In this document: one piece after another, positions 4,747 to 39,984 of the stretch | Position numbering within the stretch: position 1 is the stretch's first letter | How the letters are laid out: each line of letters begins with the position of its first letter | Notes under the pieces: model-generated | What the model was told of the DNA's origin: nothing | The model's database searches: none | The model's input: the letters and a program-made list of their open reading frames with translations, nothing else | From: Pseudohaliea rubra DSM 19751 | Lineage (GTDB): Bacteria > Pseudomonadota > Gammaproteobacteria > Pseudomonadales > Halieaceae | NCBI RefSeq assembly: GCF_000764025.1 | Contig: NZ_KN234752.1 | Span: 1-64,000, forward strand | DNA length: 64,000 nt | Direction: 5' to 3' | Program-made: the position numbers and the translations under genes

Positions 4747-4885
4747 ACACCGCCCTCATCGTTTCCAAAGTCTGGAGCTTCTGCACCACACTGCGCGACG
4801 ACGGTGTCACGGCGACTACCTGGAGCAGCTGACCTACCTGATCTACCTCAAGATGGCGGACGAATATGCCCGGCCGGCGGCTGCG
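4743..4885 (+). pseudogene. hsdM: hsdM 5' fragment (type I methyltransferase subunit)
   Basis: The ATG at 4743 opens NTALIVSKVWSFCTTLRDDGV, which matches the HsdM N-terminus. A frameshift near 4806 moves DYLEQLTYLIYLKMADEYARP to another frame, after which similarity stops. The catalytic methyltransferase domain is absent. The 3' part (4848-4885) overlaps the end of the leftward NUP/hydrolase gene, so this is the insertion or deletion junction with the purine operon. Confidence 0.75.
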
Positions 4886-8251: not shown

Positions 8252-8270
8252 GGTCAGGCGTACCCCGGCG

Positions 8271-9512: not shown

Positions 9513-9515
9513 GGA

Positions 9516-10370: not shown

Positions 10371-11971
10371 AGCGCGGCACCGGCGGTGCCGACCGGGGCT
10401 GCACCATCACTGCGCGGATCTGTTGCCGCCGTCACGCTGCCGTCCGCGGCCTGGCAGACAGCCCCGGCGTGGCCCAGGAGCTCACTCCGCGCCGGCACCT
10501 CGCGCAGGGAATGGCCGAGGGCGCGCAGCCCCGGGGCGAGCCGCGGGAACAGATCCGCCTCCAGCTTGAGGTCCTGGCTGTCGTCGCCCCAGGTCCGGCC
10601 GAGGAGCCAGCGGCCGCGGGCAATCGCATCGGCGAGGGATTCACCGCCGTAGTGATAGCGCGTAAACAGCGCCGCCTGGGTCTGCGGCTGCCCTTCCCCC
10701 CCCATCGTGCCGTAGGCCAGGCGCCGCCCGTCGTCGAAAAGCGCCAGCGCCGGGTTAAGCGTGTGCCGCGGCTTGCGCCGCGGGCCCAGGGCATTGCGGT
10801 CATCGGGATTGCGGCTGAAACCGAGGCCGCGGTTGTTCCAGCTGAGGCCGTAGTCCGGGTGCACCAGGCCGGCACCGAATTCCCAGTAGACGCTCTGGAT
10901 AAAGCTGACCAGACAGCCGTTGCGATCCACGGCGCCCATCCAGACCGTATCGCCGCGCTCCGCGGACCGCGGCCAGGGGCTGGCGCTCGAGTCATCGATG
11001 GCGGCGGCGTGTGCGCGCAGTGCCGCTGGCTCGAGCAGCGTCGGCCAGCGCTCGGAGAGGCGGGACGGGTCCGCAACCTCCGCGTCACGAACCGTGAAGG
11101 CGCGCTTGGTGGCCTCCACCAGTGCGTGCACGGCTTCCAGCTCCGAGGGTGACGGGTGTGCCCGCCGCCAGACGTCGTGGATGGCAAGGATGAGCAACGA
11201 GGCAATGCCCTGGGTCGGCGCCGGCAGGTTGAACACGCGGGCCCCGGCGAGGCGCGCGGAAAGCGGCGTAACCCGCCGCGCCCGGTAGGCAGCAAAGTCG
11301 TCGCGGCGCAGGGGACTGCCCTCGGCTGCGAGCCAGTCGGCAAGCTCGGCAGCCAGTGCACCACGGTAGACCGACTCGGTGCCCTCGGCGGCAAGGCGCT
11401 CGAGAAAGACGGCCAGCCCCGGATTGGCGAGGGAGTCACCGGCGGCAAGGGGCCGGCCCTGCGGGCAGAAGACCGACTGGTAACCCGCCGCCGCCGCGAG
11501 TTCGGGCTGTACCTTTTCACTCGCCGCAGCAAGGCTGGCAGTAACCTCGATACCGTCACGGGCAAGGGCCGCCGCCGGCGCCAGAAGCTCACCGAGGGGC
11601 CGGGGCCGATAGCCGTACTCGGCCGCGCAGGCCCGGGCCTCGCGCCAGCCGTCGAGGGTGCCGCCAAGGCAAAGCGCCGCCGGACCACCGCGGGCCGGCA
11701 CGCCGTCGAGGCCCTGCCCGGCATACCACTCCGGCGTGGCCAGGGCCGCGCTGAAGCCGCAGGCGTCGATGGCCACGGGATTCTCCCCCGGCGCCTGCAA
11801 CAGCCAGAAGCCGTCGCCACCGAGGCTGTTCATGTGCGGATAGACCACGCTGATCGCCGCCGAGGCGGCGACCATGGCGTCGATGGCGGAGGCCCCATCC
11901 TCGAGCAGCGCCTGGCCCACCTGCGCCGCCGCCGCGTGCGGCGCGCTGAAAGCGACCTGTCGACGGCTCAC
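10367..11971 (-). CDS. hpxW: Oxamate amidohydrolase-like Ntn hydrolase (gamma-glutamyltransferase family)
   Basis: A 534-residue gamma-glutamyltransferase-family protein without a signal peptide, so cytosolic, unlike the exported GGT at 33718-35436. The N-terminal DAMVAASAAISVVYPHMNSLGGDGFW and the candidate autoprocessing nucleophile Thr342 in RGDTVWMGAVD are visible. Instead of the TTHxS motif of true GGT it has DTVW, a pattern I associate with HpxW oxamate amidohydrolase, which is of similar length. The known reaction is oxamate to oxalate plus ammonia at the end of the oxalurate branch. It overlaps both neighbours by GTG starts. HpxX- and HpxY-like genes are found at 21077-22674, which strengthens the call. 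Generic GGT is the alternative. Confidence 0.75.
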   Translation of the reverse strand: MSRRQVAFSAPHAAAAQVGQALLEDGASAIDAMVAASAAISVVYPHMNSLGGDGFWLLQAPGENPVAIDACGFSAALATPEWYAGQGLDGVPARGGPAALCLGGTLDGWREARACAAEYGYRPRPLGELLAPAAALARDGIEVTASLAAASEKVQPELAAAAGYQSVFCPQGRPLAAGDSLANPGLAVFLERLAAEGTESVYRGALAAELADWLAAEGSPLRRDDFAAYRARRVTPLSARLAGARVFNLPAPTQGIASLLILAIHDVWRRAHPSPSELEAVHALVEATKRAFTVRDAEVADPSRLSERWPTLLEPAALRAHAAAIDDSSASPWPRSAERGDTVWMGAVDRNGCLVSFIQSVYWEFGAGLVHPDYGLSWNNRGLGFSRNPDDRNALGPRRKPRHTLNPALALFDDGRRLAYGTMGGEGQPQTQAALFTRYHYGGESLADAIARGRWLLGRTWGDDSQDLKLEADLFPRLAPGLRALGHSLREVPARSELLGHAGAVCQAADGSVTAATDPRSDGAAPVGTAGAAL

Positions 11972-13083
11972 GGCGCGTCGAGGTCCGCCGGGGTCGGGGT
12001 GCGCTCGCTGTAGGTCTCCCAGTTATCGAGCAGCGTGTCGATCACCCGGGAGCCGACGAGGTAGGCCGACTCCAGGGACGCATCGAGCCCGGCATAGCCC
12101 TCGTTCTCGGCAAGCAGATTCTCCGCGGCGCTGACCCCGGGCGGCGGCATGGTGTAGTTGCTGGCCGTGCGCAGGACCATCACCCGGTCGCGATCCACGC
12201 GACCGGCACGGTCCAGCCAGATGATGGACTGCATGGTGCCCGTTTCCTCCATGGCGGAGGTAACGAACTCCCCTTCGCCATCGGTCCAGTAGTCCACCCA
12301 GTCGTTCGCCCAGTCGTTGAGGATCTCGCCGTGCCAGAAGGTGAGCGCCGCGAGATTGTCACCTTTGAGCACAAAAGGCGGCTTCTGCGCATTGGGGTGC
12401 TCGGTATACAGCGCACGCGTTTCAGCGAGGGACTCATAATCCGGCAGCTCGACATCCTTCGTCAGCTGGTAGGCCCACTCCGTGAGCGCGGGGTTGAGGC
12501 GGAACATTTCCCCGGTCGGTTCCGGCCGGTCCTCGTCAAACGGCTCATCGGTGTAGCGGGCGAGGTAGCCATACTTCCAGTCCTCCGGCATTTCGCGAGG
12601 ATCGATCTCGTGGGCGAGGTCACCGTCCACCAGATACTCGGCCCAGGCGGCGGAGCCGATGGAGGCATCCTCCGGATCGACGCCGGAGATGCCCGCTACC
12701 AGCCAGTAGGCGCGGGTCAGATCGAAGCGCTGGTCCATGCCGAGCATCATCACCGAGGCCGCGGCCTTGGCCGTGCCGATACCGGTCACCATGACCAGCA
12801 GCTTCGACGCCGGGTCGTAGTAGAGGTCGTGGTGCGCGGGGAAGTCGATGCGCTCGCTGAGGTCGCGGCGCTCCAGCCAGAGCTGGAACTCGCCGGCCTG
12901 GTCGTCCCGGTCCTCGCCGATCTCGAACATGGTCACGAGGACCGCGCGGACCTCCTTCGGCGCCGGAGTTGCAGGCGCCCCGGGCTCGGCGGGCGGTGGC
13001 GACGCAGGCTCGCAGGCGGCGAGGGCTAACAGGGCGCCGAGGCACAGGGCCAGGACGGAGGCCAGAGAGAGAGAGCGGATCAT
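11968..13083 (-). CDS. NUP-family lipoprotein (annotated purine nucleoside permease)
   Basis: A 371-residue protein with a lipoprotein signal (LALAAC lipobox, Cys near residue 24) followed by a proline/alanine-rich linker and one NUP domain paralogous to residues 24-345 of the fusion at 4848-6962. Shared blocks are VLVTMFEIGE, YWLVAGISGVDPED, TFWHGEILNDWANDW and the MEETGTM segment. No further membrane-spanning segment is present, so an anchored periplasmic protein is expected. NUP domains are related to nucleoside phosphorylases, and binding or cleavage of nucleosides at the membrane is more likely than transport. ATG overlaps the stop of the exported deaminase, and its own stop overlaps the HpxW-like GTG, so all are co-translated. 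Confidence 0.85.
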   Translation of the reverse strand: MIRSLSLASVLALCLGALLALAACEPASPPPAEPGAPATPAPKEVRAVLVTMFEIGEDRDDQAGEFQLWLERRDLSERIDFPAHHDLYYDPASKLLVMVTGIGTAKAAASVMMLGMDQRFDLTRAYWLVAGISGVDPEDASIGSAAWAEYLVDGDLAHEIDPREMPEDWKYGYLARYTDEPFDEDRPEPTGEMFRLNPALTEWAYQLTKDVELPDYESLAETRALYTEHPNAQKPPFVLKGDNLAALTFWHGEILNDWANDWVDYWTDGEGEFVTSAMEETGTMQSIIWLDRAGRVDRDRVMVLRTASNYTMPPPGVSAAENLLAENEGYAGLDASLESAYLVGSRVIDTLLDNWETYSERTPTPADLDAP

Positions 13084-14660
13084 GGGGACTCCTCGGTTTC
13101 AGGGGATGCGGGTTCAGGGGATGCGGGTTCAGGGGATGCGGGTTCAGGGGGTACAGGTTCAGCGGGTACGGGGGCGAGGTCACAGAGCGCGTAGCGGCGG
13201 CAGAGGAAGCCGTGGCTGCGCGCGTTATCGGCGAGCGCCGCCGCGGGATCGTCGGCCAGGCGCCGCTCGAAATCGGCGAGGTGCAGGGCAAAGCGGCTCA
13301 AGAGCTCTATTTTCAGGCGCTCCGGAGCAAAGCTATGGCTCAGGCTGTTGCGCGACAGCAGCACCAGCTCATCCCAGGACAGGTTGAACTCGCGCACCGC
13401 GACGAAGAACTCATCGGTAAGGTTCGAGTCCCACATGCCGCGGTCGTCGGTGGACAGCGCCACGGGAATGCCCGTGCGCAGGTACTCGGGAAAGGGGTGC
13501 TGCGCGTAGTCATCGACGTACTCGAGCAGCAGGTTAGAGATCAGGTTGATTTCCACCAGGTAGGGGCCGTGGCGCATGAGCCGCATGGTAGCCGGGTCGG
13601 TGATCAGATTGACCCCGTGGCCGATGCGGTCAGCCCCGAGGAGCAGCGTGTCGCGGACATGGTGGTTCGGCTCGTCCACCTCACCGGCGTGAATAGCCAG
13701 GCGCACGCCGTGATGTTCCCGGCGCAGTTCCCGGAGCGTGTCGAGAAAACGCAGCGGGTACCCCTTATCGTTGTCCTCGCGGCCGACCATGTTCACGGCG
13801 ACGAAGAGGTCCCGGTTGCGGGCGACGAAGGCGTACAGCGTACGCAGCATGTCCTCGGCGTTCGGTGCAAAACGCAGAAGCGCCACCTGCAGCTTGAGGG
13901 CGACGCCCGTGGCCACGGCGTCCGGCTCGCGCAGGCGCTGCCGGTAAACGTCCGCCATCTCGTCCGGCGTCAGTCGGCTCCCGTCGGGGCGCAGGAAACC
14001 AAGCACCCCGACCATGGTCTCGAGGTACAGCAGACCCTCCTGCCCGAAGGCCTGCATGTTGCGTACCAGCGCATCGGCGGTGAAGTACGGGTTCAGATAG
14101 AGATCGCCCATACGCTGCCAGTGGGTTTGAAAGAATTCGTCACGACCTTCGTGGGCCTTGTCGAGCACCATGCTGTTGAGCCAGGCCCGACGCTGCTCTG
14201 CATCGAGCTCCTCGAGGCGCACGAATTCGCCCTGCTCGCAGGGCGGCAGCTGCTCCCAGGTGCTCTCCTGCACCGTCAGAAACAGAAGCAGATAGGGGTC
14301 CTGGCCGAAGGCGTCGCCGCCGTAGGGCCGACAGTTGTCGATGCGAACGCGGGTGTAGAAATGATAACCGTGCTCCCGCTGGGCCAGGGCAAGGTCGTAA
14401 AGCCAGTCATCGAGTACAGAGCCGGAGAGGTGATTGTGCAGGTCACCACCCTTGGGCATGGCGTAGAGGAAGCGGTAGAGCTCCACGGCTGTGGCCTCGG
14501 CCTTGAAGCGCTCGAACCACGTTCCCGTGTCCGGCGCCGGCACCGCGGCCCCTACGCCCCCGGCGAAAGCCGCAAGCAGCGCGGCGGCTGCAAGGCACAG
14601 GCCACCAGCCCAGCCACGGCGCCGGCGCGGCGGCGTTGGCGAGGTGTGTCGTTCAGTCAC
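13080..14660 (-). CDS. Exported adenosine deaminase, ADGF/ADA2-like
   Basis: A 526-residue adenosine-deaminase-superfamily protein with an N-terminal basic stretch and hydrophobic signal (residues 16-39). Zinc-site residues are in MPKGGDLHNHLSGSV (His75, His77), followed by LAIHAGEV, DRIGHGVN, EINLISNLLL and LSTDDRGMWDSNL. Extra length and the MPKGGDLHNH form resemble secreted ADGF/ADA2 deaminases rather than cytosolic Add. It would deaminate adenosine outside the inner membrane, giving inosine for the NUP and hydrolase partners encoded behind it. GTG start at 14660 lies 43 bp downstream of a sigma-54-type promoter. The C-terminus ends in a PEPAS repeat tail coded by a 15-bp tandem repeat. 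Confidence 0.85.
   Translation of the reverse strand: MTERHTSPTPPRRRRGWAGGLCLAAAALLAAFAGGVGAAVPAPDTGTWFERFKAEATAVELYRFLYAMPKGGDLHNHLSGSVLDDWLYDLALAQREHGYHFYTRVRIDNCRPYGGDAFGQDPYLLLFLTVQESTWEQLPPCEQGEFVRLEELDAEQRRAWLNSMVLDKAHEGRDEFFQTHWQRMGDLYLNPYFTADALVRNMQAFGQEGLLYLETMVGVLGFLRPDGSRLTPDEMADVYRQRLREPDAVATGVALKLQVALLRFAPNAEDMLRTLYAFVARNRDLFVAVNMVGREDNDKGYPLRFLDTLRELRREHHGVRLAIHAGEVDEPNHHVRDTLLLGADRIGHGVNLITDPATMRLMRHGPYLVEINLISNLLLEYVDDYAQHPFPEYLRTGIPVALSTDDRGMWDSNLTDEFFVAVREFNLSWDELVLLSRNSLSHSFAPERLKIELLSRFALHLADFERRLADDPAAALADNARSHGFLCRRYALCDLAPVPAEPVPPEPASPEPASPEPASPETEESP
13095..13170. repeat. 15-bp tandem repeat in the deaminase C-terminus
   Basis: Five near-identical units of GGTTCAGGGGATGCG (plus strand) lie in tandem; the first three are almost perfect and the last two diverge. 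In frame on the minus strand they encode repeated Pro-Glu-Pro-Ala-Ser. Unit number changes keep the frame, so the tail length may vary between strains. Confidence 0.85.
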
Positions 14661-14702
14661 GGAAAATCTCCAACATGGACAGCGTCGAACAGCGGTTCCA
14701 GA

Positions 14703-14718
14703 GCAAGAAGAATGCCAC
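14703..14718 (-). promoter_or_regulatory. Sigma-54-type promoter of the exported deaminase operon
   Basis: On the minus strand the site reads TGGCATTCTTCTTGCT, with GG and GC of the -24 and -12 elements exactly 12 bases apart and a full TTGCT -12 block. The predicted transcript start is about 33 bp before the GTG at 14660. It drives the seven-gene operon down to 4848. Confidence 0.7.
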
Positions 14719-14854
14719 CGCCTCCCCCACGCATTACCTTGGTATTATGGCACGGCGGCGACACCGGTCGCACCAGTGCGGGGCATCCTGCGCCAGCGAA
14801 GTGCAATAACGGCTGCACACCCGAAGGCGGCCGGCGACCAGCGCGAGGCAGCGG

Positions 14855-14870
14855 TGGTATGGTACTTGCG
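14855..14870 (+). promoter_or_regulatory. Sigma-54-type promoter of puuE
   Basis: TGGTATGGTACTTGCG has correctly spaced GG and TTGC elements. The GTG of puuE is 35 bp downstream. The site is divergent from the promoter at 14703-14718, and the 136 bp between the two could hold a shared activator site; an imperfect GTGCA-N8-TGCAC inverted repeat lies there, but its orientation differs from the NtrC consensus. Confidence 0.6.
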
Positions 14871-14904
14871 TTGCCTGGGGCAGCCCCGAAGGAGAGCGCG
14901 ATCC

Positions 14905-15828
14905 GTGACCGACCCCTACCCCCGAGACCTGCGCGGCTACGGCCGGCAGCCGCCGCCTTTCCGCCTGCCCGGCCACGCGCGCATAGCCGTACAGTTCGTC
15001 ATCAACTACGAGGAAGGCGGAGAAAACTCCGTGCTCCACGGCGACCCCGCTTCGGAGACCTTCCTCTCCGACATTATCGGTGCCGAGGCCTACCCGGACC
15101 GGCACATGAGCATGGAGTCCCTCTACGAATACGGCAGCCGTGCAGGCTTCTGGCGCCTGCAGCGCCTGTTCACGCGCCAGCGGGTGCCGGTAACGGTGTT
15201 CGCAGTCACCAGTGCGATCGCGCGCAACCCGGAGGCCGTAGCCGCCATGCGTGAGGCGGACTGGGAGATCGCCTGCCACGGCCTGCGCTGGATCAGCTAC
15301 CAGCAGGTGCCGGAAACGATCGAGCGCGAGCACATGCAGCGCGCCATCGCCTGGCACGAAGAACTCACCGGCGCGCGACCCCTGGGCTGGTACACGGGTC
15401 GGGACAGCCCGAACACCCGGCGCCTGCTGCTCGAGGCCGGCGGCTTCCTCTATGATTCGGACTCCTACGCCGACGATCTGCCCTACTGGGTCGAGGGCCC
15501 CGACGGGCCCCACCTGGTCATTCCCTACACCCTGGACACGAACGACATGCGCTTCGCCACCGCACAGGGTTTCAACAGCGGTGACCAGTTTTTCAACTAC
15601 CTGCGCGACGCCTTTGATGTGCTCTATGCCGAAGGCGAACAGTGCCCGAAGCTGCTCAACATCGGCCTGCACTGCCGCATCGCCGGCCGCCCCGGTCGCT
15701 TCAGCGCCCTGCAGCGTTTCCTGGAATATATACAGACCCACGACCACGTCTGGCTCTGCCGCCGAGAGGACCTCGCCCGGCACTGGCATGAACACCATCA
15801 CCCCGGGAAAGGAGACCCCCATGACTGA
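14905..15828 (+). CDS. puuE: Allantoinase PuuE
   Basis: A 307-residue polysaccharide-deacetylase (NodB-like) family protein of the metal-independent allantoinase PuuE group. Diagnostic blocks are YPRDLRGYGRQPP, QFVINYEEGGENSVLHGD, EYGSRAGFWRL, ITC-like EIACHGLRWI, and GWYTGRDSPNTRRLL. It opens the hydantoin ring of allantoin to allantoate, the substrate of the M20 hydrolase encoded on the other strand. The GTG at 14905 was chosen because AAGGAG lies 11 bases upstream and the TDPYPRDL start matches the family; the open frame extends much farther upstream but that part is a shadow of intergenic DNA. Its 3' end overlaps the cupin gene by eight bases. Confidence 0.93.
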   Translation: MTDPYPRDLRGYGRQPPPFRLPGHARIAVQFVINYEEGGENSVLHGDPASETFLSDIIGAEAYPDRHMSMESLYEYGSRAGFWRLQRLFTRQRVPVTVFAVTSAIARNPEAVAAMREADWEIACHGLRWISYQQVPETIEREHMQRAIAWHEELTGARPLGWYTGRDSPNTRRLLLEAGGFLYDSDSYADDLPYWVEGPDGPHLVIPYTLDTNDMRFATAQGFNSGDQFFNYLRDAFDVLYAEGEQCPKLLNIGLHCRIAGRPGRFSALQRFLEYIQTHDHVWLCRREDLARHWHEHHHPGKGDPHD

Positions 15829-16426
15829 CAGCTCGCGCCGGCGCCGCGGCGCCTCCCTCCTCGCCGCCACGCTCAGCGCAGGCGCCGTCACGGCCGCACC
15901 CTCGGTGGACGAACTGGTGCGCGAACTCCGCCTCGAAGCCCACGTGGAGGGAGGCTACTACCGCCGGACCTATGCCGCGGAGGACCAGCCGCGGGTCGAG
16001 ACCGCCGCCGGCGAGCGCTACAGCATGTCCTCGATCTTCTACCTGCTCACCCGCGCATCACCCACCGGCCATTTCCACCGCAACCGCTCGGACATCGTCC
16101 ACTACTTTCACCTCGGCGATCCCATCACCTACTACCTGCTCCACCCGGACGGGCGGCTGGAAACCGTGGTCATGGGCCAGGATCTCGCGGCCGGCCAACG
16201 CCTGCAGCTCACGGTCCCCGGGGGTATCTGGAAGGCCTCCTCCCTTGGAGAGGGCGCCCTGGGTTACGGCCTGATCAGCGAGGCGGTCAGCCCGGGCTTT
16301 GACTATGCCGACATGACTCTCGGCGAGGCGGCCGCGCTGGCCAGGCAGTTCCCGGAGCACGCCGCCCTGGTGCGCCGGCTGACGCATAGCAGCGAAGATG
16401 GGAAAAGTACCCAAGGCGGGCGTTGA
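15821..16426 (+). CDS. Cupin (DUF985-type) protein with N-terminal signal
   Basis: A 201-residue protein whose residues 30-165 match the DUF985/cupin_5 family: the LRLEAHVEGGYYRRTY opening, a YSMSSIFYLL strand, the metal-type HFHRNRSDIVHYFHLGDP block, and GGIWKASSLGEGALGYGLIS. An Arg-rich N-terminus and alanine-rich hydrophobic stretch (residues 4-26) suggest export, possibly by the Tat route, although a twin-arginine consensus is not clear. It overlaps puuE and should be co-translated with it. The function in purine breakdown is not known; it is not the ureidoglycine aminohydrolase cupin, which has a different architecture. Confidence 0.8.
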   Translation: MTDSSRRRRGASLLAATLSAGAVTAAPSVDELVRELRLEAHVEGGYYRRTYAAEDQPRVETAAGERYSMSSIFYLLTRASPTGHFHRNRSDIVHYFHLGDPITYYLLHPDGRLETVVMGQDLAAGQRLQLTVPGGIWKASSLGEGALGYGLISEAVSPGFDYADMTLGEAAALARQFPEHAALVRRLTHSSEDGKSTQGGR

Positions 16427-16443
16427 CGCTCCCCCCCACCGAC

Positions 16444-16460
16444 CGCACCATTCCGGTGCG
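16444..16460. promoter_or_regulatory. NtrC-like enhancer site
   Basis: CGCACCATTCCGGTGCG is a perfect 6-5-6 inverted repeat that matches the NtrC consensus TGCACC-N5-GGTGCA except at the two outermost bases. It lies about 130 bp upstream of a sigma-54-type promoter, the usual enhancer distance. Confidence 0.6.
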
Positions 16461-16586
16461 TCTGCGCCAGCCTGAGGAGTTCGCCGGTTCCGCGCGCCCC
16501 CCGTCGCCATCACGCGCTGGCTCCGGGCGTCGCCAACCCCCTGTTTTTACGTGATAAACGTCCTGTCGCCGGGACACCGGATGCCT

Positions 16587-16602
16587 TGGCATCAATTCTG
16601 CT
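16587..16602 (+). promoter_or_regulatory. Sigma-54-type promoter of the TonB receptor gene
   Basis: TGGCATCAATTCTGCT has a full TGGCA -24 element and TGCT at -12 with exact spacing. The predicted start near 16612 leaves a leader of about 110 bases before the ATG at 16722; no riboswitch fold was recognised in this leader. Confidence 0.65.
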
Positions 16603-16721
16603 AAGGGTTTGCCGAACGAAGCGCTACCGCTGAATCCGTGACGTTATAAAAACGTGGTCAAGAGCGTCGCGAACGGGCCCCGGCCAAGCCGGCGGCCACT
16701 TGGATTTTTTGAGGAGGAATC

Positions 16722-19112
16722 ATGAACGTACCCGTGAAACGCCTGCCGCTGGCCGCGGCAGTTACCGCAACCCTGGTCGCCGGACAACCGCTGCTGGCCC
16801 TGGCGCAGGACAATCCGGCGCTGGAGGAGATTGTCGTCACCGGCTCCCTGCGCAGCCTGCCGGGGGAAGACGTCGACGTCTTCGGCTTCGGCAAGTCCCT
16901 GCTCGAGACGCCGCGCTCCGTGTCCACGATCAGCGCGGAGCAGATGGAGCGCTTCAACGTCAACGACATCGATGAGCTGGTTGCCTTTTCTCCGGGCACC
17001 TTCACACAATCCTTCTTCGGCGTTGCCGGCGCCCTGGACGTGCGCGGTACGCCCGGTGAAACCTACTTCCGCGGCATTCGCCGGGTCGACAACCCCGGCA
17101 ACTACGCTACACCGATCGCCGCCGCCGACCGCGTCGATATTGTCCGCGGCCCGGCCTCACCGATCTACGGCCCCTCAAAGATCGGCGGCTACCTGAACTT
17201 CAACCCGAAATCTGCCCGGGCAGGCTCCGGCGAGTACCTCGACAAAACCACCGGTGGCCTGTCCTACACCACCGGCAAGTGGGACCGCCAGGTGATCTCC
17301 GGTGACATCGGCGGCGCCATCTCCGACAACGCCGGCTACTATCTCTACGCCGAGTACGAGGACTCCGACAGCTTCTACGACAACACGGCCACGGAGAACA
17401 CCATCCTGCAGGCGGCCTTTGATGTCGACGTCACCGACAAGCTGCATATCCAGTTCGGTGCGATGTACCACGACTTCCTCGGCAACCAGGTAGCGGGCTG
17501 GAACCGCCTCAGCCAGGACCTCATCGACAACGGCACCTACGTCACCGGTACGGCGCAGTCGCTGGACGCCGACGGCAGCGGCAAGATCACCCACCAGGAG
17601 TACAACGCGGCGGGTATTTCCCAGTTCATTCTGTTCCCGAGCTTTGTGACCGAGGGCGACCTGAACCCGCTGAGCGCTCTTGAGAACCCGGGAACGACCA
17701 CCCTCAGCCCAAGCAACGTGCTGGTGGACCCGAACGACGAGCTGGATAATGAAACGATCACGCTCTACTTCGATGCGATCTACACCGCCGACAATGGCCT
17801 GGAAATCAAGAACCAGCTGTTTTACGAAAGCCTTGAGAACAACAACGAGAATGCCTACGGCTTCTCCCAGCAGGGTGAAACCTGGGTCTTCGAAGAGAAG
17901 CTGGTCTTCGGCTACACCCTGGAGGGCAACGGCGTCACCTCGCGGCTACAGTTCTCGCCATCGGTACGCTACACGGACTTCGAACGCGGCCAGGACTATA
18001 TCAACGAGTTCTTCGATCGCCGCGATCTGAGCCAGTCCGCTGCCGAGCGTGACCCGGCCCTGGACGCGCGCCTGCTGTCCACCCAGATCGATAACGACTA
18101 CAGCGAGTACCAGTACGGCGACTACACCATGTGGGGACTGGCCTTCCTTGGCGATTTCACCTGGGACAATGGCCTCAACATCACCCTCGGCCTGCGCCAG
18201 GACTGGATCGACATGGAGTCGAATACGCCGCTGGACAAGCTGCTGTTCCCGCCGGAAGATCTGGTGGCGAACTTCCCGGGCGGCGTCGCCAGCTACAGCG
18301 ACAGCAACGACATCTTCTCCTGGACGGCCAGCGTCAGCTGGGATTCACCGATCGGTCTGATTCCCTACGTGACGATGTCCGAGCAGTCGACGATCATCGC
18401 CGACCAGATGGGCGATCTGCCGCTGGAGCTGGTACGCACGGGTAACGCCACAGACGTGTCGGAGCTGTTCGAGGTCGGCATCAAGGGCAGCTACCTCGAT
18501 GACTCCCTGTTCTTCGCCCTCAGCTACTACGAGCAGGAGCGCACGGACTTCAGCGCCCAGGCCATCGTGACCAATGCGTCCACGAAGACCGAGGGTATCG
18601 AGGCTGAACTGCGCTGGGTGGTCACCCCGCAGCTGGTGGTCACCGCCGGCTGGACGAACCTGGAGATCACCATGGTCTCCGCGGTTGAGGAAGGGACGCT
18701 GTTCAGTTTCTTCGGCGCGGACGACATCCCGCAGATTGACCCCGCTCTGGTCTACGGCGGCCAGGTCATCGGCCTGATCCCGGCCGGCGACGGTCTCAAG
18801 CAGGGCATCCCGGAGAATATCTACACGGCCACGGCCACCTACGACTTCGAGAACGGCCTTGCGGTCAACGCCAGCGTCATCGACGTTGACTCGACCTTCT
18901 CGGGCTTTTCCCGGAGCGTGGAGCTTCCGGCCTACACGCTGGTCAACGCCGGCGTAAGCTATGAGACGGAAAACTGGAAGGTGAGCCTCACCGGCAAGAA
19001 CCTCACCGACGAGGAATACTTCCGCTCCAACTTCCCGAACCTCTTCGGCGGCCAGATTGTCCTGCCGGAGCTTCCGCGCCACTGGGTGGCCAAGCTGGAT
19101 TACCGCTTCTAG
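16722..19112 (+). CDS. TonB-dependent outer-membrane receptor with an EF-hand loop
   Basis: A 796-residue receptor with a signal peptide (residues 1-27, LALAQ end), a TonB-box-like EEIVVTGSL, a plug domain (about 45-165; VRGTPGETYFRGIRRVDNPGNY, DRVDIVRGPASPIYG) and a beta barrel ending in the outer-membrane terminal Phe (KLDYRF). An extracellular-loop segment at residues 282-293, DADGSGKITHQE, is a canonical calcium-binding EF-hand loop. The start follows GAGGAGG. Upstream are an NtrC-like site and a sigma-54-type promoter, and an intrinsic terminator follows, so it is a single-gene unit. The location suggests uptake of a purine or nucleoside compound; the ligand is not shown by the sequence. 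Confidence 0.92.
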   Translation: MNVPVKRLPLAAAVTATLVAGQPLLALAQDNPALEEIVVTGSLRSLPGEDVDVFGFGKSLLETPRSVSTISAEQMERFNVNDIDELVAFSPGTFTQSFFGVAGALDVRGTPGETYFRGIRRVDNPGNYATPIAAADRVDIVRGPASPIYGPSKIGGYLNFNPKSARAGSGEYLDKTTGGLSYTTGKWDRQVISGDIGGAISDNAGYYLYAEYEDSDSFYDNTATENTILQAAFDVDVTDKLHIQFGAMYHDFLGNQVAGWNRLSQDLIDNGTYVTGTAQSLDADGSGKITHQEYNAAGISQFILFPSFVTEGDLNPLSALENPGTTTLSPSNVLVDPNDELDNETITLYFDAIYTADNGLEIKNQLFYESLENNNENAYGFSQQGETWVFEEKLVFGYTLEGNGVTSRLQFSPSVRYTDFERGQDYINEFFDRRDLSQSAAERDPALDARLLSTQIDNDYSEYQYGDYTMWGLAFLGDFTWDNGLNITLGLRQDWIDMESNTPLDKLLFPPEDLVANFPGGVASYSDSNDIFSWTASVSWDSPIGLIPYVTMSEQSTIIADQMGDLPLELVRTGNATDVSELFEVGIKGSYLDDSLFFALSYYEQERTDFSAQAIVTNASTKTEGIEAELRWVVTPQLVVTAGWTNLEITMVSAVEEGTLFSFFGADDIPQIDPALVYGGQVIGLIPAGDGLKQGIPENIYTATATYDFENGLAVNASVIDVDSTFSGFSRSVELPAYTLVNAGVSYETENWKVSLTGKNLTDEEYFRSNFPNLFGGQIVLPELPRHWVAKLDYRF

Positions 19113-19148
19113 CGGAGAAAACGACTGCATCCAGTCCATGCAGCTTCC

Positions 19149-19175
19149 AAGCCCTCGCAAGAGGGCTTTTTTTTT
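19149..19175 (+). terminator. Intrinsic terminator after the TonB receptor gene
   Basis: AAGCCCTC-GCAA-GAGGGCTT forms an 8-bp stem with a GNRA-like tetraloop followed by a run of nine further Ts from the stem end, 37 bp after the stop codon. Confidence 0.9.
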
Positions 19176-19221
19176 GGTTCATCGTAGAGTTCCAGGACGG
19201 CTGCCGAGGTCGCACTGTTCC

Positions 19222-19296
19222 GGGGTGAGTGCGGGAGAGTTCTCTCAGTCGCTCCACGATATTCGCTTGGTGAGAGAACTCTCCCGCACTCACCCC
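19222..19296 (+). repeat. Type 1 hairpin A: perfect 25-bp stem, 25-nt conserved loop
   Basis: The left arm 19222-19246 (GGGGTGAGTGCGGGAGAG...) and the right arm 19272-19296 are perfectly complementary over 25 bases. The loop 19247-19271 starts AGTCGCTCC and ends CGCTTGGT. The loop sequence is identical in all four complete hairpins of the window. Confidence 0.9.
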
Positions 19297-19361
19297 TGAC
19301 GCCTACCGTACTCCCGGGGCATTCAACATCACCCCCGAAGTAGGGATGAGCACCGGAGGTA

Positions 19362-19436
19362 GGCGCGGCTACGGGAGGGTGCCCCCACCAAGCGAATATC
19401 GTGGAGCGACTGGGGCCACCCTCCCGTGGCCGCGCC
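19362..19436 (-). repeat. Type 2 hairpin B: same loop in reverse polarity
   Basis: The arms 19362-19386 and 19412-19436 pair at 23 of 25 positions plus one G-T wobble; the loop 19387-19411 is the exact reverse complement of the hairpin A loop. The arm sequence (GGCGCGGCTACGGGAGGG...) is unrelated to type 1 arms. Confidence 0.85.
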
Positions 19437-19568
19437 GGCAAGCTAAGACAAGCTCACATTATGGTGAGTACCGCCGGTCGGGTAAGGCTGGGGCATACCC
19501 CCCACCCGCCACGGAAACCCACGATGGACCAAAAAAAGTTCTTCGAAGGTTTCCGGGGGGAGCGCGGG

Positions 19569-20927
19569 TTATCCGGGATTACGATGTACCGAGCCGGCCA
19601 AGGCAGTCCGCGGGACCGCAAGCTCCAGCGCCATAGCGAGGAAAGCACCGTTAGACACCGGGAACTGCAGGAACAGCGCACCGGCGCCGCCGAACCCGGC
19701 CCGTGCCGTGACCTCGGCGAGCAGCCAGCCGCCAACAGCAGAAATCATCGCGATGGCCCAGCCCCGGCGACCGATCGCGCCTCCGGCAAGGAGCCCCCAG
19801 CCGGCCCGTGCCACCATCAGGAACAGCAGCAGCGTGCAGCCATAAAGTACCGCCGCTGGCAGCGACTGCAGGAGTGCGGCAACCGCCGGCAGGAGGCCGA
19901 GAGCCACGAGGAAGGCCGCCACCACATAGCCGACGCGGCGGCTGGCGATGCCGGTCAGGCGGATTACGCCGTTGTTCTGGCTGAAGGTCGTGTTGGGAAA
20001 GGTGCCGGCCAGGGCCGCAAGGAGCGAATTCAAGGCATCGCCCAGGATACCGCCGCGCACCCGTAGCCAGTAGCCATCCCCCCGGGTGGACAGGCCGCTC
20101 AGAGCCGCTGTCGCGGTAAGATCACCGACAGATTCCGTGGCCGACACCAGGAATACCGGCAGCAGGAGCAGGAAGACGCCTACGTCAAAGCCGACACCGT
20201 AGGGGAGGAGCCGGGGCAGAAAAGGACCGCCCGGGCTCGCCGCAAAGTCGCCAAAGAGCCCGAGGGCAGCGGCGGCAGCAGCCCCGACGACCAGACCCCC
20301 GAGCACGCTGCACAGGCGATACCAGGGTGAGCGCCGGGTCGCCAGCCACAGGGTGAGCGCGAACACGCCCGTCGCCAGCAGGACGAGGGCGGCGGTCGGG
20401 GCCTCCGGCGCGGTGCAGGCGCGCACCAGGTTCCCGAGGGTCGACAGGACCAGCGTGAAACCGATGAGCAGCACCGTGGTGCCGGTCACTGTCGGCGTGA
20501 GCAGCCGCTGCAGGCGGCGGACCCCGAGGGCCAGCACGCCGGTAACAACGGCGGCGAGGGCGCAGCAGCCGAAGATCACGGCGAGGCGCTCCCGCGCCGG
20601 CATAGCCTCCGGAAGGCCATGGAAAGCGAACAGCACGGGCCCGATAAAGGTAAAGCTCGTGCCCTGGATGGCCAGCAATCCGGAGCCGATGCCGTGACGT
20701 CCGGCGACCTGGATCGCCGTAGCGATCCCCGAGACAAACAGGGAAGCGGCGAGGATGGCCTGGGTCTCGGCCGCCGGCAGCCCCATGCCCACGGCCATGA
20801 TAAGCGGCGCCGTGACGATACCGCCAAAGACCGCCAGCAGGTGCTGCAGGCCCGCAAGGAGCGCCCGCGGCAGAGGCAGGCGCGCCTCGTGACCATAGAG
20901 CAGGGGGGCGGCGGCGAGTACAGACAT
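19569..20927 (-). CDS. NCS2-family purine (urate/xanthine type) permease
   Basis: A 452-residue membrane protein with 12-14 hydrophobic segments. Family signatures are LAVFGGIVTAPLIMA near residue 30, IQGTSFTFIGP, the VSATESVGDL helix with the conserved Glu, and the SQNNGVIRLTGIASRRVG motif (QNxGxxxxTxxxSR), typical of the urate/xanthine/uracil permease branch. The ATG at 20927 was chosen because GGAGAACC lies upstream and the reading frame before it has no conserved residues. It lies divergent to the HpxX/HpxY-like operon, and back-to-back sigma-54-type promoters lie between them. The cargo is most probably urate or xanthine. Confidence 0.9.
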   Translation of the reverse strand: MSVLAAAPLLYGHEARLPLPRALLAGLQHLLAVFGGIVTAPLIMAVGMGLPAAETQAILAASLFVSGIATAIQVAGRHGIGSGLLAIQGTSFTFIGPVLFAFHGLPEAMPARERLAVIFGCCALAAVVTGVLALGVRRLQRLLTPTVTGTTVLLIGFTLVLSTLGNLVRACTAPEAPTAALVLLATGVFALTLWLATRRSPWYRLCSVLGGLVVGAAAAAALGLFGDFAASPGGPFLPRLLPYGVGFDVGVFLLLLPVFLVSATESVGDLTATAALSGLSTRGDGYWLRVRGGILGDALNSLLAALAGTFPNTTFSQNNGVIRLTGIASRRVGYVVAAFLVALGLLPAVAALLQSLPAAVLYGCTLLLFLMVARAGWGLLAGGAIGRRGWAIAMISAVGGWLLAEVTARAGFGGAGALFLQFPVSNGAFLAMALELAVPRTALAGSVHRNPG

Positions 20928-20974
20928 GGCGGGGTTCTCCAGGGCAGGCCAGGACTTTTGCTGTGCCCCGGACC

Positions 20975-20990
20975 TGCAAGTTCGGTGCCG
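20975..20990 (-). promoter_or_regulatory. Sigma-54-type promoter of the purine permease gene
   Basis: On the minus strand CGGCACCGAACTTGCA carries a perfect GGCAC -24 and TTGCA -12 with consensus spacing; predicted leader to the ATG at 20927 is about 37 bases. Confidence 0.7.
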
Positions 20991-21009
20991 CCCGGGAAGC
21001 AGGGGCCGC

Positions 21010-21025
21010 TGGCATACTGTTTGCT
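21010..21025 (+). promoter_or_regulatory. Sigma-54-type promoter of the HpxX/HpxY-like operon
   Basis: TGGCATACTGTTTGCT matches TGGCAY-N6-TTGCT with consensus spacing. It is back to back with the promoter at 20975-20990; only 19 bp separate their -24 ends, so a shared activator site is likely elsewhere. Confidence 0.7.
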
Positions 21026-21076
21026 GGCTATTTGGGCCGGAGCACGGCACTTGCGATGACAGGAGGACACGACGCC

Positions 21077-21295
21077 ATGGATGACACCGCCATTACCGAC
21101 GCCGAGCTGGACGGGCTGGCCGCCCTGGCGGGCCTGACGCTGGCTCCCGACTGTCGCGAAGGGGTCCGCCTGCACCTGGCTACCGCCCGACGCATGCTGA
21201 CGCTGCTGGCGCCTCCGGGGAGCGGAGCAGACGAACTGGCCCTGGCGCCCGTCTTCGACCCAGCCCCGGCCGGGGACGGGGGCGACGCAGGGTGA
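21077..21295 (+). CDS. hpxX: AtzG/HpxX-like small subunit (DUF4089)
   Basis: A 72-residue acidic protein whose ITDAELDGLAALAGLTL and CREGVRLHLATARRML helices match the DUF4089/AtzG family. AtzG-like proteins form complexes with AtzE-type amidases and are needed for their stability. The ATG at 21077 is chosen because AGGAGG precedes it by ten bases; an in-frame ATG at 21056 lies before that ribosome site. Its stop overlaps the GTG of the amidase gene. In Klebsiella the HpxX gene is paired with HpxY and with the oxamate amidohydrolase HpxW, and both partners have counterparts in this window. Confidence 0.78.
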   Translation: MDDTAITDAELDGLAALAGLTLAPDCREGVRLHLATARRMLTLLAPPGSGADELALAPVFDPAPAGDGGDAG

Positions 21296-22674
21296 CTAGC
21301 GCCACAGCCATCGCCGGTGCCGTGCGCCGCGGTGAGGTGACAGCCGGCGAGGTGCTGGCCCGGACCCTCGCCCGCATCGCGGCGGGCAACGACACACTGA
21401 ACGCCTTCACGGCGGTGACTGCGGCCCGGGCCCGGGCGCAGGCCGGGGCCATCGACCGCCGCATCGCCGCGGGGGACGACCCCGGGCCGCTCGCCGGCGT
21501 GCCCTTCGCGGTGAAGAACCTCTTCGACGTCGCCGGCCTGGTGACCACTGCCGGCAGCCTGATCAACCGCGACAACAACCCCGCCGCAGGTGATGCCGTG
21601 CTGGTGCGGCGCCTGGAGGCCGCGGGCGCCGTGCTGGTGGGCAGCCTGCATATGGGCGAGTACGCCTACGACTTCACCGGCGAGAACGTCCACGACGGAC
21701 CGTGCCGCAACCCCCGGGACCCGACACGCATGACCGGTGGCTCCTCCTCCGGTGCCGGCGCTGCGGTCGGCGGCGGCCTGGTGCCCATCGCTCTGGGCTC
21801 CGATACAAACGGTTCGATCCGCGTGCCCGCCTCGCTCTGCGGTGTCTTCGGCCTCAAGCCCACCTACGGCCGCCTGCCACGCACGGGCACCTATCCCTTC
21901 TGCGACAGCCTCGACCACGTCGGCCCCCTCGCCGCCACGGTAGAGGACCTGGCGCGGACCTACGACACGCTGCAGGGCTTCGACAGCGGCGACCCGGCCT
22001 GCGCACGACGCGGGCTCGCGCCGACACTGCCGACGCTGGCCGACGGTCTCCATGGTCTCCGCGTCGCCCGCGCCGGCGGCTTCTTCGGCGCAGAAGACTA
22101 TCCGCTCGCGCGGGCGGCCGTGGAACGTGTCTGCGTCGCCCTCGGGGCAGCGCGGGAAGAGCCCCTCCCGGGGGCCGCCGCCGGCCGCGCCGCAGCCTAC
22201 CTGGTGACCAACGCCGAGGGCGCCGCCCTGCACCACATTCATCTGCGCCAGCGTGCGAAGGACTTTGACCCGGACACGCGCGACCGCTTCCTCGCCGGGG
22301 CCCTGCTCCCGGCCGACTGGTACCTGCGCGCCCAGGCCGCCCGGCGCGCCTGGCGGGCCGAGATGGCCGCGGTCTTCCGACATACGGACCTCCTCGTAGC
22401 ACCCTGCACGCCGTGCGCGGCGCCGCCCCTGGGCACCCGCTACCTCGACCTTGCCGGTCGCCGGGAACTGCTGCGACCGAATCTCGGTCTGTTTACCCAA
22501 CCCTTCTCCTGCATTGGCCTGCCGGCACTCTCCGTGCCGCTCTGGCTGCCGGGGGAGACCCTGCCCATCGGGGTACAGCTTGTCGCCGCGCCCTGGCGCG
22601 AAGACCTCTGCCTGCGCGCCGGCGAGGTCCTCGCTCGCAGCGGCGTTGCCGAAGCGCGACCGGGGGTGGTGTAA
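21292..22674 (+). CDS. hpxY: AtzE/HpxY-like amidase
   Basis: A 460-residue amidase-signature enzyme. The catalytic triad is visible: Lys75 in PFAVKNLFDVAG, cis-Ser151 in TGGSSSGAG and nucleophile Ser175 in SDTNGSIRVPAS. It belongs to the AtzE branch (AtzE is 1-carboxybiuret hydrolase) and is coupled to the AtzG-like gene by a GTGA overlap. The purine setting favours the HpxY role, which is linked genetically to oxalurate/oxamate use but whose chemistry is not firmly established. The stop overlaps an upstream ATG option of the deaminase, consistent with one operon. Confidence 0.82.
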   Translation: MTSATAIAGAVRRGEVTAGEVLARTLARIAAGNDTLNAFTAVTAARARAQAGAIDRRIAAGDDPGPLAGVPFAVKNLFDVAGLVTTAGSLINRDNNPAAGDAVLVRRLEAAGAVLVGSLHMGEYAYDFTGENVHDGPCRNPRDPTRMTGGSSSGAGAAVGGGLVPIALGSDTNGSIRVPASLCGVFGLKPTYGRLPRTGTYPFCDSLDHVGPLAATVEDLARTYDTLQGFDSGDPACARRGLAPTLPTLADGLHGLRVARAGGFFGAEDYPLARAAVERVCVALGAAREEPLPGAAAGRAAAYLVTNAEGAALHHIHLRQRAKDFDPDTRDRFLAGALLPADWYLRAQAARRAWRAEMAAVFRHTDLLVAPCTPCAAPPLGTRYLDLAGRRELLRPNLGLFTQPFSCIGLPALSVPLWLPGETLPIGVQLVAAPWREDLCLRAGEVLARSGVAEARPGVV

Positions 22675-22730
22675 TGCCGAACCCCGATCAGCGGCCCCCT
22701 CACCGACCTGCCAACCGCGGAGACACCGTC

Positions 22731-23744
22731 ATGCGAGACTTCATCCAGGCCCTGCCCAAAGCCGAGCTGCACGTTCACCTCGAGGGCACGCTGGAACCGG
22801 AACACATCTTTGCCCTCGCCCAGCGCAACGGCATCAATCTGGAATACAAGCGCCCGGAGGATGTGGTCGCCGCCTACGACTTCCACGACCTGCCCTCCTT
22901 CCTGAAGATCTACTATGCGGCCATGGATGTGCTGCGCGAGGAAGAAGACTTCTATGAGCTGGCCTGGCACTACTTCCAGCGCGCGGCAGCGCAGAACATC
23001 GTCTATGTCGAACCCTTCTTCGATCCCCAGGCGCACACGGTACGCGGGGTGTCCTTCGAAACGGTGATCAATGGCATCAGCCGCGCCCAGCGAGACGCGG
23101 CGGAGAAGCTCGGCGTGACGAGCAACCTTATCCTCTGCTTCCTGCGGGATATGAGCGCCGAATCCGCTGCGGAAACCCTCGCCGCGGTGGAACCCTTCCT
23201 CGACCGCATCATCGGCGTCGGTCTCGACTCGGACGAAAAAGACAATCCACCGGCGAAGTTCGCCGAGGTCTTCGCCCGGGCCCGCTCCCTCGGCCTCAAG
23301 CTGACCATGCACTGCGACGTGAACCAGAAGGACATCCTCGACCACCTCCGCGAGTGCCTGGATCTCATCGCCGTCGACCGCATCGACCACGGCATCAATG
23401 CGCTGGAAGACCCGACGCTCTGTGACGCCATCGTCGAGCGCGGCCTCGGGCTGACGATCTGCCCCGTATCGAACCGCTTCGTGGTGCAGAACCTCACCGG
23501 CGACGAGATCCGGCAGATGCTCGCCAAGGGCATGCGCGCCACCATCAACTCCGACGACCCGGCCTATTTCCGCGCCTACCTCAACGAAAACTTCGAGGCG
23601 CTGGTGGACGAGGCGGCTTTCACCGAGGCGGAGATTCTCCAGCTCGTGCGCAACGCTTTCACAGTCAGCTGGCTCCCGGAGGCAGCGAAGACGGCCTACC
23701 TGGCCCGCGTGGACGAAGCGCAGCGCGCCGCGGCAGCGCACTGA
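22731..23744 (+). CDS. Adenosine/adenine deaminase family protein (second cytosolic paralogue)
   Basis: A 337-residue deaminase with ELHVHLEGTLEPEHIF (His14, His16), MHCDVNQ in place of the usual HAGE, DRIDHGINALED, ICPVSNRFVV and INSDDPAYFRAYL. The EGTLEPE opening resembles adenine deaminases. The HAGE motif reads HCDV, so the residue normally used as general acid (Glu) is changed; a different substrate or geometry is possible, and loss of activity cannot be excluded. The ATG at 22731 is preferred; ATG at 22674 would add 19 unconserved residues. It is encoded directly upstream of an AzgA-type permease with a one-base gap, which points to an adenine-like base. Confidence 0.82.
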   Translation: MRDFIQALPKAELHVHLEGTLEPEHIFALAQRNGINLEYKRPEDVVAAYDFHDLPSFLKIYYAAMDVLREEEDFYELAWHYFQRAAAQNIVYVEPFFDPQAHTVRGVSFETVINGISRAQRDAAEKLGVTSNLILCFLRDMSAESAAETLAAVEPFLDRIIGVGLDSDEKDNPPAKFAEVFARARSLGLKLTMHCDVNQKDILDHLRECLDLIAVDRIDHGINALEDPTLCDAIVERGLGLTICPVSNRFVVQNLTGDEIRQMLAKGMRATINSDDPAYFRAYLNENFEALVDEAAFTEAEILQLVRNAFTVSWLPEAAKTAYLARVDEAQRAAAAH

Positions 23745-23745
23745 C

Positions 23746-25044
23746 GTGCCGGGACGGCTGGAAACACGCTTCGGCATCGAGGCGCAGGGCAGCACCGTCC
23801 GTCGGGAGATCATGGCGGGTGTTACCACCTTCCTGGCCATGGCCTACATCACCGTGGTCAATCCGGCGATCCTCTCCGAGGCGGGCATGGACTTCGGCGC
23901 CGTGTTCGTGGCCACCTGCCTCGCCGCCGCCATCGGCACGGCGATCATGGGCCTCTATGCCAACTACCCGGTGGCGCAGGCGCCGGGCATGGGCCAGAAC
24001 GCCTTCTTCACCTACGGCATCGTGCTCGGCATGGGCTATGCCTGGCAGACGGCCCTGGGGGCGGTACTCATCTCGGGGATCATCTTCATCGTTCTCTCCG
24101 TGCTGCCGGTGCGCGAGTGGCTGATCAATGCGATCCCCCGCTCCCTGAAGCTCGGCATCTCCGCGGGCATCGGCCTGTTCCTCGGTATCATCGCCCTCAC
24201 CGGCAGCGACATCATTGTCCGTGACCCGGCGACGCTGGTCTCCCTCGGTGACCTGGCCGCCCTGCCGGCAACGCTGCTCCTGGTGGGCTTCGTGGTGATT
24301 GCCGCCCTCTCGGCCCGCCGGGTAACCGGCGCTGTGGTGATCGGTATGCTGCTGGTCACGGTACTCGGCTGGTCTACCGGGGCCGCCGAGTTCCAGGGCG
24401 TGGTATCGAAGCCACCTTCGCTGACGACCTTTCTCTCGCTGGACCTCGCCGGCGCCTTCGACCTGTCCATGGTGACAGTGGTGCTGACATTGCTGCTGGT
24501 CGACGTTTTCGATACCGCCGGCACCCTGGTCGGCGTCGCCAACCGCGCCGGCATGCTCGATGAAAACGGCCACCTGCCGCGCCTGCGCAAGGCCCTGCTG
24601 GCGGACTCGAGCGCCACTGCCATCGGTGCACTCCTCGGCACCTCGTCCACCACCAGCTATATCGAGAGCGCCGCCGGCGTCGAGGCCGGCGGGCGCACCG
24701 GCCTTGCCTCGGTGACTACCGCGCTCCTGTTCCTGCTTTGTCTGTTCATTGCGCCGCTGGCCCAGAGCATTCCGTCCTTTGCCACCGGCGCGGCGCTGCT
24801 GTTCGTGGCCTGCATCATGGCCCGCGCGCTGGAGGATCTGGAATGGGCCAACGTCACCGAAGCGACGCCGGCGGTGGTAACGGCCCTCGCCGTGCCCCTG
24901 ACCTATTCCATCGCCGATGGCATCGGCCTGGGCTTCATCACCTACGCGGCGATCAAGCTCGTGGCCGGCCACGGCCGCGAGTGCCCCGCCGCAGTGTATG
25001 TGGTGGCGACGATCTTCGTGCTAAAGTTCGCCTTTCTTGGCTAG
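23746..25044 (+). CDS. AzgA-type adenine/guanine/hypoxanthine permease
   Basis: A 432-residue NCS2/AzgA membrane protein with about 12-14 hydrophobic segments. The opening LETRFGIEAQGSTVRREIMAGVTTFLAMAYI and the APGMGQNAFFTY block are hallmarks of the AzgA branch, together with VDVFDTAGTLVGVANRAG and LGTSSTTSYIESAAGVEAGGRTGL. It brings in purine bases by proton symport. The GTG start lies one base after the deaminase stop, so the two are translationally linked. A phosphoribosyltransferase gene follows after 15 bp, giving an import, deamination and salvage module. Confidence 0.92.
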   Translation: MPGRLETRFGIEAQGSTVRREIMAGVTTFLAMAYITVVNPAILSEAGMDFGAVFVATCLAAAIGTAIMGLYANYPVAQAPGMGQNAFFTYGIVLGMGYAWQTALGAVLISGIIFIVLSVLPVREWLINAIPRSLKLGISAGIGLFLGIIALTGSDIIVRDPATLVSLGDLAALPATLLLVGFVVIAALSARRVTGAVVIGMLLVTVLGWSTGAAEFQGVVSKPPSLTTFLSLDLAGAFDLSMVTVVLTLLLVDVFDTAGTLVGVANRAGMLDENGHLPRLRKALLADSSATAIGALLGTSSTTSYIESAAGVEAGGRTGLASVTTALLFLLCLFIAPLAQSIPSFATGAALLFVACIMARALEDLEWANVTEATPAVVTALAVPLTYSIADGIGLGFITYAAIKLVAGHGRECPAAVYVVATIFVLKFAFLG

Positions 25045-25059
25045 GGTAACGGCGGCTCC

Positions 25060-25659: not shown

Positions 25660-25724
25660 AGGCGCAGGAAAAAAGCTACAGGCTCACTACAATAGTCGGC
25701 TGACGCCCCTCACCGGAGCCCGGC

Positions 25725-39950: not shown

Positions 39951-39984
39951 TACCGTTTGAGCTTCAGAAGTACGCGAGGCGCAA

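Follow-up and report, generated by a model that had tools for sequence, protein, structure and literature searches.

Introduction

NtrC/sigma-54 control of purine catabolism has been described or suggested in other bacteria. In Burkholderia cenocepacia, xanthine dehydrogenase and a urate oxidase cluster are among the common NtrC/sigma-54 targets, and an ntrC mutant is impaired in allantoin use; uric acid is there grouped with the nitrogen sources that are set against those showing impairment (PMC5491218). In Klebsiella oxytoca, HpxAB-HpxO-HpxWXYZ is induced, and the promoter sequences were taken to suggest involvement of NtrC and sigma-54, although that account does not show the data (PMC8381380). 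An ntrC mutant of Pseudomonas stutzeri is impaired on uric acid (PMC8443478). Here, we describe a purine island of Pseudohaliea rubra DSM 19751 (Gammaproteobacteria, Halieaceae), which resembles the B. cenocepacia and K. oxytoca systems in its predicted NtrC/sigma-54 control of purine catabolism, but differs from them in including a TonB-dependent receptor and an exported deaminase, neither of which is named in the available parts of those two accounts (PMC5491218, PMC8381380). The window, i.e., the whole stretch of DNA that was analyzed, comprises 64,000 nucleotides (contig NZ_KN234752.1, positions 1 to 64,000), and the genome as a whole has 3,212,303 bases, distributed over 86 contigs; the island extends from ∼4848 to 25659.

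Promoters of the Escherichia coli glnA/glnK type offer a further comparison. The island shares with them the -24/-12 elements and the 17-bp palindromic boxes upstream, and the consensus sequences used here agree with those of E. coli RpoN and NtrC, for which the available part of the source gives TGGCACnnTTnTTGC and (T)GCA(CC)AnnnT(GG)TGC(A) (PMC8743547). Its layout is also that of glnA and glnK in its own genome. It differs in its targets, the TonB receptor and the exported deaminase, and in that two of the five promoters have no recognizable box. Among the open-licence papers listed in literature searches, none dealt with purine import by a TonB receptor that is controlled by NtrC or sigma-54, and a Caulobacter NtrC paper makes no mention of TonB, purine, xanthine, or allantoin.

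Results

Five sigma-54-type promoters in the purine island

A first-pass annotation of the window had proposed five sigma-54-type promoters of defined position, strand, and spacing. Scoring with an 11-position sigma-54 working matrix recovered all five, with 13.1 to 18.2 bits:

14702..14717, minus strand: sigma-54 -24/-12 promoter of the exported-deaminase operon, TGGCATTCTTCTTGCT, 18.2 bits, exact TGGCA-N6-TTGC; site also in the related loci L016 and L017
14855..14870, plus strand: sigma-54 promoter of puuE, TGGTATGGTACTTGCG, 13.1 bits, register kept in L016
16587..16602, plus strand: sigma-54 promoter of the TonB-dependent receptor, TGGCATCAATTCTGCT, 13.4 bits, block common to the window, L016, L018, and L019
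20975..20990, minus strand: sigma-54 promoter of the permease, CGGCACCGAACTTGCA, 14.6 bits, among the longest blocks conserved versus L016
21010..21025, plus strand: sigma-54 promoter of the HpxX/HpxY operon, TGGCATACTGTTTGCT, 18.2 bits, exact TGGCA-N6-TTGC; identical in L016

All five sites are intergenic and exhibit the GG-10 bp-GC spacing within TGGCA/TTGC-like elements. The elements are perfect at 14702 and 21010 and imperfect at the other three sites (TGGTA; CTGC at -12; CGGCA). Start codons, which were chosen by us, follow 34 to 119 bases past each site in the correct direction, within the 25 to 130 bp that had been proposed. At puuE, an overlapping register at 14860 loses its -12 element in L016, and the 14855 register is preserved. 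In the permease/HpxX intergenic region, the two sigma-54 sites are the longest blocks conserved between the window and L016, and the loci L236 and L237 carry a site before the permease similar to that of the window. The -24 ends of these divergent promoters (20975-21025) are only ∼20 bp apart, so that two polymerases may not bind simultaneously at this pair. An Rfam search of 12000-26000 for riboswitches in the leaders yielded no match.

Background of sigma-54-like matches

In a first scan of the 64-kb window, the top seven matches all lay within 14053-21025 and corresponded to the five promoters plus two matches inside the deaminase gene (14053-14068 and 14589-14604, minus strand). The latter point along its operon and may represent chance matches or internal promoters. 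Above 13 bits, 7 matches were found versus 1.75 in simulations; above 10 bits there was no excess (13 versus 11.9). We then determined the background in 14 stretches of the same genome (279,999 bp, both strands), which at the correct spacing contained 9 sites of at least 13 bits, 1 of at least 14 bits, and none of at least 15 bits. Four wrong spacings gave 3 to 9, 1 to 4, and 0 to 2 sites at these thresholds, one of them reaching 16 bits. These background matches thus reflect chance, and a lone site of 13 to 16 bits is not significant by itself.

In front of genes, the background was represented by 85 genes preceded by a gap of 40 bp or more. Their upstream regions contained no site of at least 13 bits (best, 12.9 bits in one region), versus five out of five island promoters. 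The chance figures of 2.3e-8 and 2.8e-6 are descriptive only, as the island was chosen post hoc and the matrix was a provisional one. A background as dense as the island, which the first-pass annotation had named as the outcome that would count against it, was not seen in the 280-kb scan or in these upstream regions.

NtrC-box-like sites and the probable activator

Three palindromic sites resembling NtrC boxes (TGCACCN5GGTGCA) were found upstream of the deaminase, puuE, and receptor promoters:

14769..14785: NtrC-box-like site, CGCACCAGTGCGGGGCA, 2 mismatches; aligned with L016
14789..14805: NtrC-box-like site between the divergent deaminase and puuE promoters, TGCGCCAGCGAAGTGCA, 2 mismatches; L016 has TGCGCCAGCCGGGTGCA
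16444..16460: NtrC-box-like site 143 bp before the -24 element of the receptor, CGCACCATTCCGGTGCG, 2 mismatches of 12

The motif GCACCATNNCGGNGC before the receptor is common to the window, L016, L017, L018, and L019, and TGCACCATACTGGTGCA stands upstream of ntrB. The two deaminase/puuE boxes are 20 bp apart, and the glnA pair of the same genome (at -108 and -87; 2 and 3 mismatches in the two boxes) 21 bp. The gene upstream of amtB, named glnK by position and reading, has a 13.3-bit sigma-54 site with a 2-mismatch box at -104. The island boxes thus match as well as those of glnA and glnK in their own genome. In the relatives, boxes with up to 2 mismatches at the 5-bp spacer stood upstream of 21 of the 64 sigma-54 sites, compared to 0 to 7 at eleven other spacers (0 to 4 and 6 to 11) and a shuffled average of 0.75; these 64 sites are not independent, as a box may be shared by the two members of a divergent pair and some of the strains are closely related. 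GCACC-N5-GGTGC alone was also considered as a predictor of NtrC sites and rejected, as nearly all of the other copies examined are coding: it occurs at 27 places, two of which are the receptor and ntrB sites (reversed pattern, 4 forward and 4 reverse).

The genome encodes RpoN (one PF00309 match, E 9.6e-16) and NtrC (NF008176, 754.9 bits, cutoff 620; TIGR01818, 753.5 bits, cutoff 558.6). The ntrC gene adjoins glnA and a histidine kinase gene, named ntrB by position. Nine strong enhancer-binding domains were detected in the genome; one is NtrC, above both cutoffs, and one PspF, above one of two. The other seven reached no NCBIfam equivalog cutoff among the matches listed. Sigma-54 control was supported at all five promoters; NtrC control was supported at three, with no box recognizable at the permease/HpxX pair.

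Recurrence in related loci

The closest loci found by deaminase search were those of a contig from an uncultured member of the Halieaceae (86% identity) and of Chromatocurvus halotolerans (L017; 76%). We scanned the 250-bp upstream regions in the best 80 of 222 loci of deaminase relatives at 12 bits. Sigma-54 sites were present upstream of the receptor in 25/39 cases, of the deaminase in 18/78, and of puuE in 11/30, while six wrong spacings gave only 0 to 2/39, 0 to 1/78, and 0 to 1/30, respectively. At these three genes, the sites thus recur at the sigma-54 spacing only, which supports the earlier proposal that they form a purine-nitrogen regulon. Antisense counts (10 at the deaminase, 7 at puuE) probably reflect the divergent partner. 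Loci with a receptor site include those of Cellvibrio, Neiella, Colwellia, Marinimicrobium, Vreelandella, Thalassolituus, and Alteromonas. For other genes, sites were found upstream of nupnh (5/31), ada2 (4/22), perm1 (3/15), NUP (1/50), and perm2 (1/14). The nupnh and NUP counts are not evidence of recurrence, because wrong spacings gave comparable numbers (3/31 at one spacing and up to 3/50, respectively). No site of at least 12 bits occurred upstream of amh (0/28), ada1 (0/17), hprt (0/11), cup5 (0/11), or hpxY (0/9).

A receptor-first sample, which avoids choosing loci by the deaminase, covered 293 genomes of the order (E up to 1e-80). The receptor was found in 10 genomes, the deaminase in 8, and both in 7. 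An island gene lay near the receptor in 8 of the 9 other receptor genomes (seven judged from stretches, G013 from positions); G214, with two receptor copies, had no island gene within the stretches examined.

The same promoter class elsewhere in the genome

The exact pattern TGGCA-N6-TTGC occurs 30 times in the genome, versus 12 times for the reversed pattern, and two of the 30 copies lie in the island. When all 30 were examined, those in front of genes and in the right direction were the two island sites and sites at glnA, xdhA, a second adenosine deaminase gene, and an Asp/Glu/hydantoin-family racemase gene, the last being gene-front once the start is placed downstream of the called open reading frame. 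Twenty-three of the 30 are in called genes or long open frames (including L145), long open frames being weak proof of coding in so GC-rich a genome; L133 is ambiguous. The product of xdhA, the xanthine dehydrogenase small subunit, scored 466.2 bits on TIGR02963, just below the cutoff of 467. Although the pattern search took no account of purines, its gene-front matches thus comprise glutamine synthetase and, for the most part, purine genes, and the same promoter class before xdhA and the second adenosine deaminase gene extends the putative regulon past the island. Both sites recur in a genome of the same genus (L167 and L113, respectively).

Receptor and exported deaminase

The receptor contains plug and barrel domains and comes closest to siderophore receptors, among both family models and solved structures; its score on TIGR01783 (118.1 bits) remained below the cutoff for that siderophore-receptor family (223.5). 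A Fur-like box upstream of the receptor was considered and rejected, as the best match to a Fur consensus has 9 mismatches of 19. The deaminase contains an A_deaminase domain and scored 106 bits on TIGR01431, below the cutoff of 315 for the growth factor family; its nearest solved chains are of the ADGF type. Export of the deaminase is predicted from its N terminus, read by eye. The 3' end of its gene carries short tandem repeats (GGGTTCAGGGGATGC-like, window 13096-13170), and this repeat-bearing tail is missing in many relatives, whose matches frequently stop close to residue 493 of 526.

Island layout and neighboring features

The genes that the five promoters would serve are as follows:

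4848..13083, minus strand: remainder of the deaminase operon (NUP, GGT-family, TauE, class-V aminotransferase, allantoate amidohydrolase, and NUP-nucleoside hydrolase fusion), by profile matches
13080..14660, minus strand: exported adenosine-deaminase-like protein (ADGF/ADA2-like), gene 1 of seven in the operon, PF00962
14905..15828, plus strand: allantoinase PuuE, TIGR03212, 522.3 bits, cutoff 424.6
15821..16426, plus strand: cupin DUF985 protein, overlapping puuE, PF06172
16722..19112, plus strand: TonB-dependent receptor, siderophore-receptor-like by sequence, PF00593 and PF07715
19569..20927, minus strand: NCS2 (xanthine/uracil family) permease, PF00860; NCBIfam ncs2 and pbuX matches below cutoff
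21077..25659, plus strand: operon of HpxX-like small protein, AtzE-family amidohydrolase (HpxY-like), adenosine deaminase, second permease, and phosphoribosyltransferase, by profile matches

Adjacent genes of the seven-gene minus-strand operon overlap or are separated by 3 to 19 bp. Besides PuuE, models above cutoff were those for allantoate amidohydrolase (554.4 bits) and the AtzE-family amidohydrolase (640.5 bits), and the HpxX-like protein scored 21.1 bits on an AtzG-like model, below the cutoff of 24. The labels HpxX, HpxY, and HpxW-like (for the GGT-family protein) are our assumption from genomic context and general background.

Further observations were made in the window. A single 704-amino-acid protein (4848-6962) fuses an NUP domain with a nucleoside hydrolase domain. 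An intergenic inverted-repeat element is present at 19219-19436 and 39900-40035; its 25-base core has 29 copies in the genome (up to 1 mismatch), several as inverted pairs 105 to 203 bp apart, and we take it to resemble a REP/BIME- or MITE-like family. At 49342-51653, a PrnB-family protein (PF08933, 9.5e-172) adjoins a class-V aminotransferase, whose kynureninase-like match is weak.

Discussion

Judged from sequence, the island quite probably constitutes a regulon for purine scavenging that is controlled by nitrogen through NtrC and sigma-54. The purine block would probably scavenge purines as an emergency nitrogen source. In the proposed mechanism, nitrogen shortage would lead NtrB to phosphorylate NtrC, which would bind the palindromic boxes, i.e., the pair between the deaminase and puuE promoters and the one upstream of the TonB receptor. 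Via looping, NtrC would then drive sigma-54 RNA polymerase at the -24/-12 sites to form open complexes. The functions switched on would be outer-membrane import by the receptor, extracytoplasmic deamination, the nucleosidases, and both permeases, together with the steps from allantoin to oxamate. Outside the island, the same promoter class precedes the genes for xanthine dehydrogenase and for another adenosine deaminase. Here, NtrC binding, activation, the nitrogen response, and the substrate of the receptor are what we infer. For the permease/HpxX pair, activation by NtrC through weaker sites is our guess.

Several observations weigh against this reading. Sixty of the 78 deaminase upstream regions had no site, so control is not universal. 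In the receptor-first sample, a site of at least 12 bits preceded the receptor in only 3/8 genomes (G178, G341, and G416, the last two of one genus) and in none of G011, G214, G269, G272, and G408, a rate lower than the 25/39 of the deaminase-first sample. Among relatives, the xdhA site is clear in the same-genus genome (L167) only: of 17 other xdhA-like loci, L184 (13.9 bits) alone exceeded 12.0 bits, L183 had exactly 12.0 bits, and 15 scored below 12 bits. In the window itself, the scans revealed no sigma-54 site at the purine genes 934-1947 and 2052-3413. With respect to NtrC, 20500-21500 around the permease/HpxX promoters contains no palindrome within 3 mismatches (3-mismatch palindromes at 20401 and 20467 are both inside the permease gene), and no box stands upstream of xdhA. 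The second deaminase gene (3 mismatches) and the racemase gene (2 mismatches) have only 4-bp-spacer palindromes, and L236 and L237 each have four sigma-54 sites without a good box. Moreover, the palindrome by itself is unspecific: of 20 other GCACC-N5-GGTGC copies examined, 19 are coding and 1 separates two convergent genes, and a sigma-54 match (12.0 bits, at a distance of 144 bp) accompanies one of the 20.

It is very improbable that the five matches merely arose by chance in a GC-rich genome, with transcription starting elsewhere. Single matches of 13 to 14 bits do occur (9 sites at 13 bits in 280 kb), the deaminase gene contains two more, and three of the five sites deviate from the perfect elements. 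This view is countered by the 0/85 background upstream regions at 13 bits, the spacing-specific recurrence in relatives, the conserved blocks at the sites, and the co-occurring NtrC boxes. The promoters could also be genuine sigma-54 promoters at which another enhancer-binding protein, perhaps a purine-responsive one, activates some or all genes, most plausibly the permease/HpxX pair and xdhA. The missing boxes there and at L236/L237 fit such an activator, as do the seven of nine enhancer-binding domains for which no NCBIfam equivalog cutoff was reached among the matches listed. However, no enhancer-binding-protein gene was present among the 39 window proteins scanned, and the 5-bp-spacer NtrC box recurs upstream of the sigma-54 sites of these genes in relatives; we regard this alternative as unlikely.

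A somewhat stronger, though still rather unlikely, competitor concerns the receptor only. It might import iron, a metal needed by xanthine dehydrogenase, or some other non-purine, and share the nitrogen control only since this import supports purine use. Its siderophore-receptor relatives and the two copies in G214 without an island gene in the stretches examined speak for such a substrate. On the other side, an island gene is nearby in 8/9 other receptor genomes, no better Fur match than one with 9/19 mismatches was found, and the siderophore-receptor model remained below its cutoff. A more far-reaching reading is that a siderophore-type TonB receptor was turned into an outer-membrane importer of purine nucleosides and, together with the exported ADGF/ADA2-like deaminase, forms an NtrC/sigma-54 nitrogen starvation system found repeatedly in several gammaproteobacterial lineages, of which many are marine; this broader proposal falls slightly short of an even chance.

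The regulatory logic itself is textbook knowledge. The class of mechanism is known; new here is that its members include a TonB receptor resembling siderophore receptors and an ADGF-like deaminase that is exported. A nitrogen-type promoter combined with repeated proximity to purine genes provides a testable substrate prediction for a receptor that looks like an iron importer. As most TonB receptors have no assigned substrate, the promoter offers a regulatory mark for finding further receptors of this kind. If NtrC/sigma-54 control of the island holds true, the outer-membrane and exported steps of purine use would be tied directly to the nitrogen alarm.

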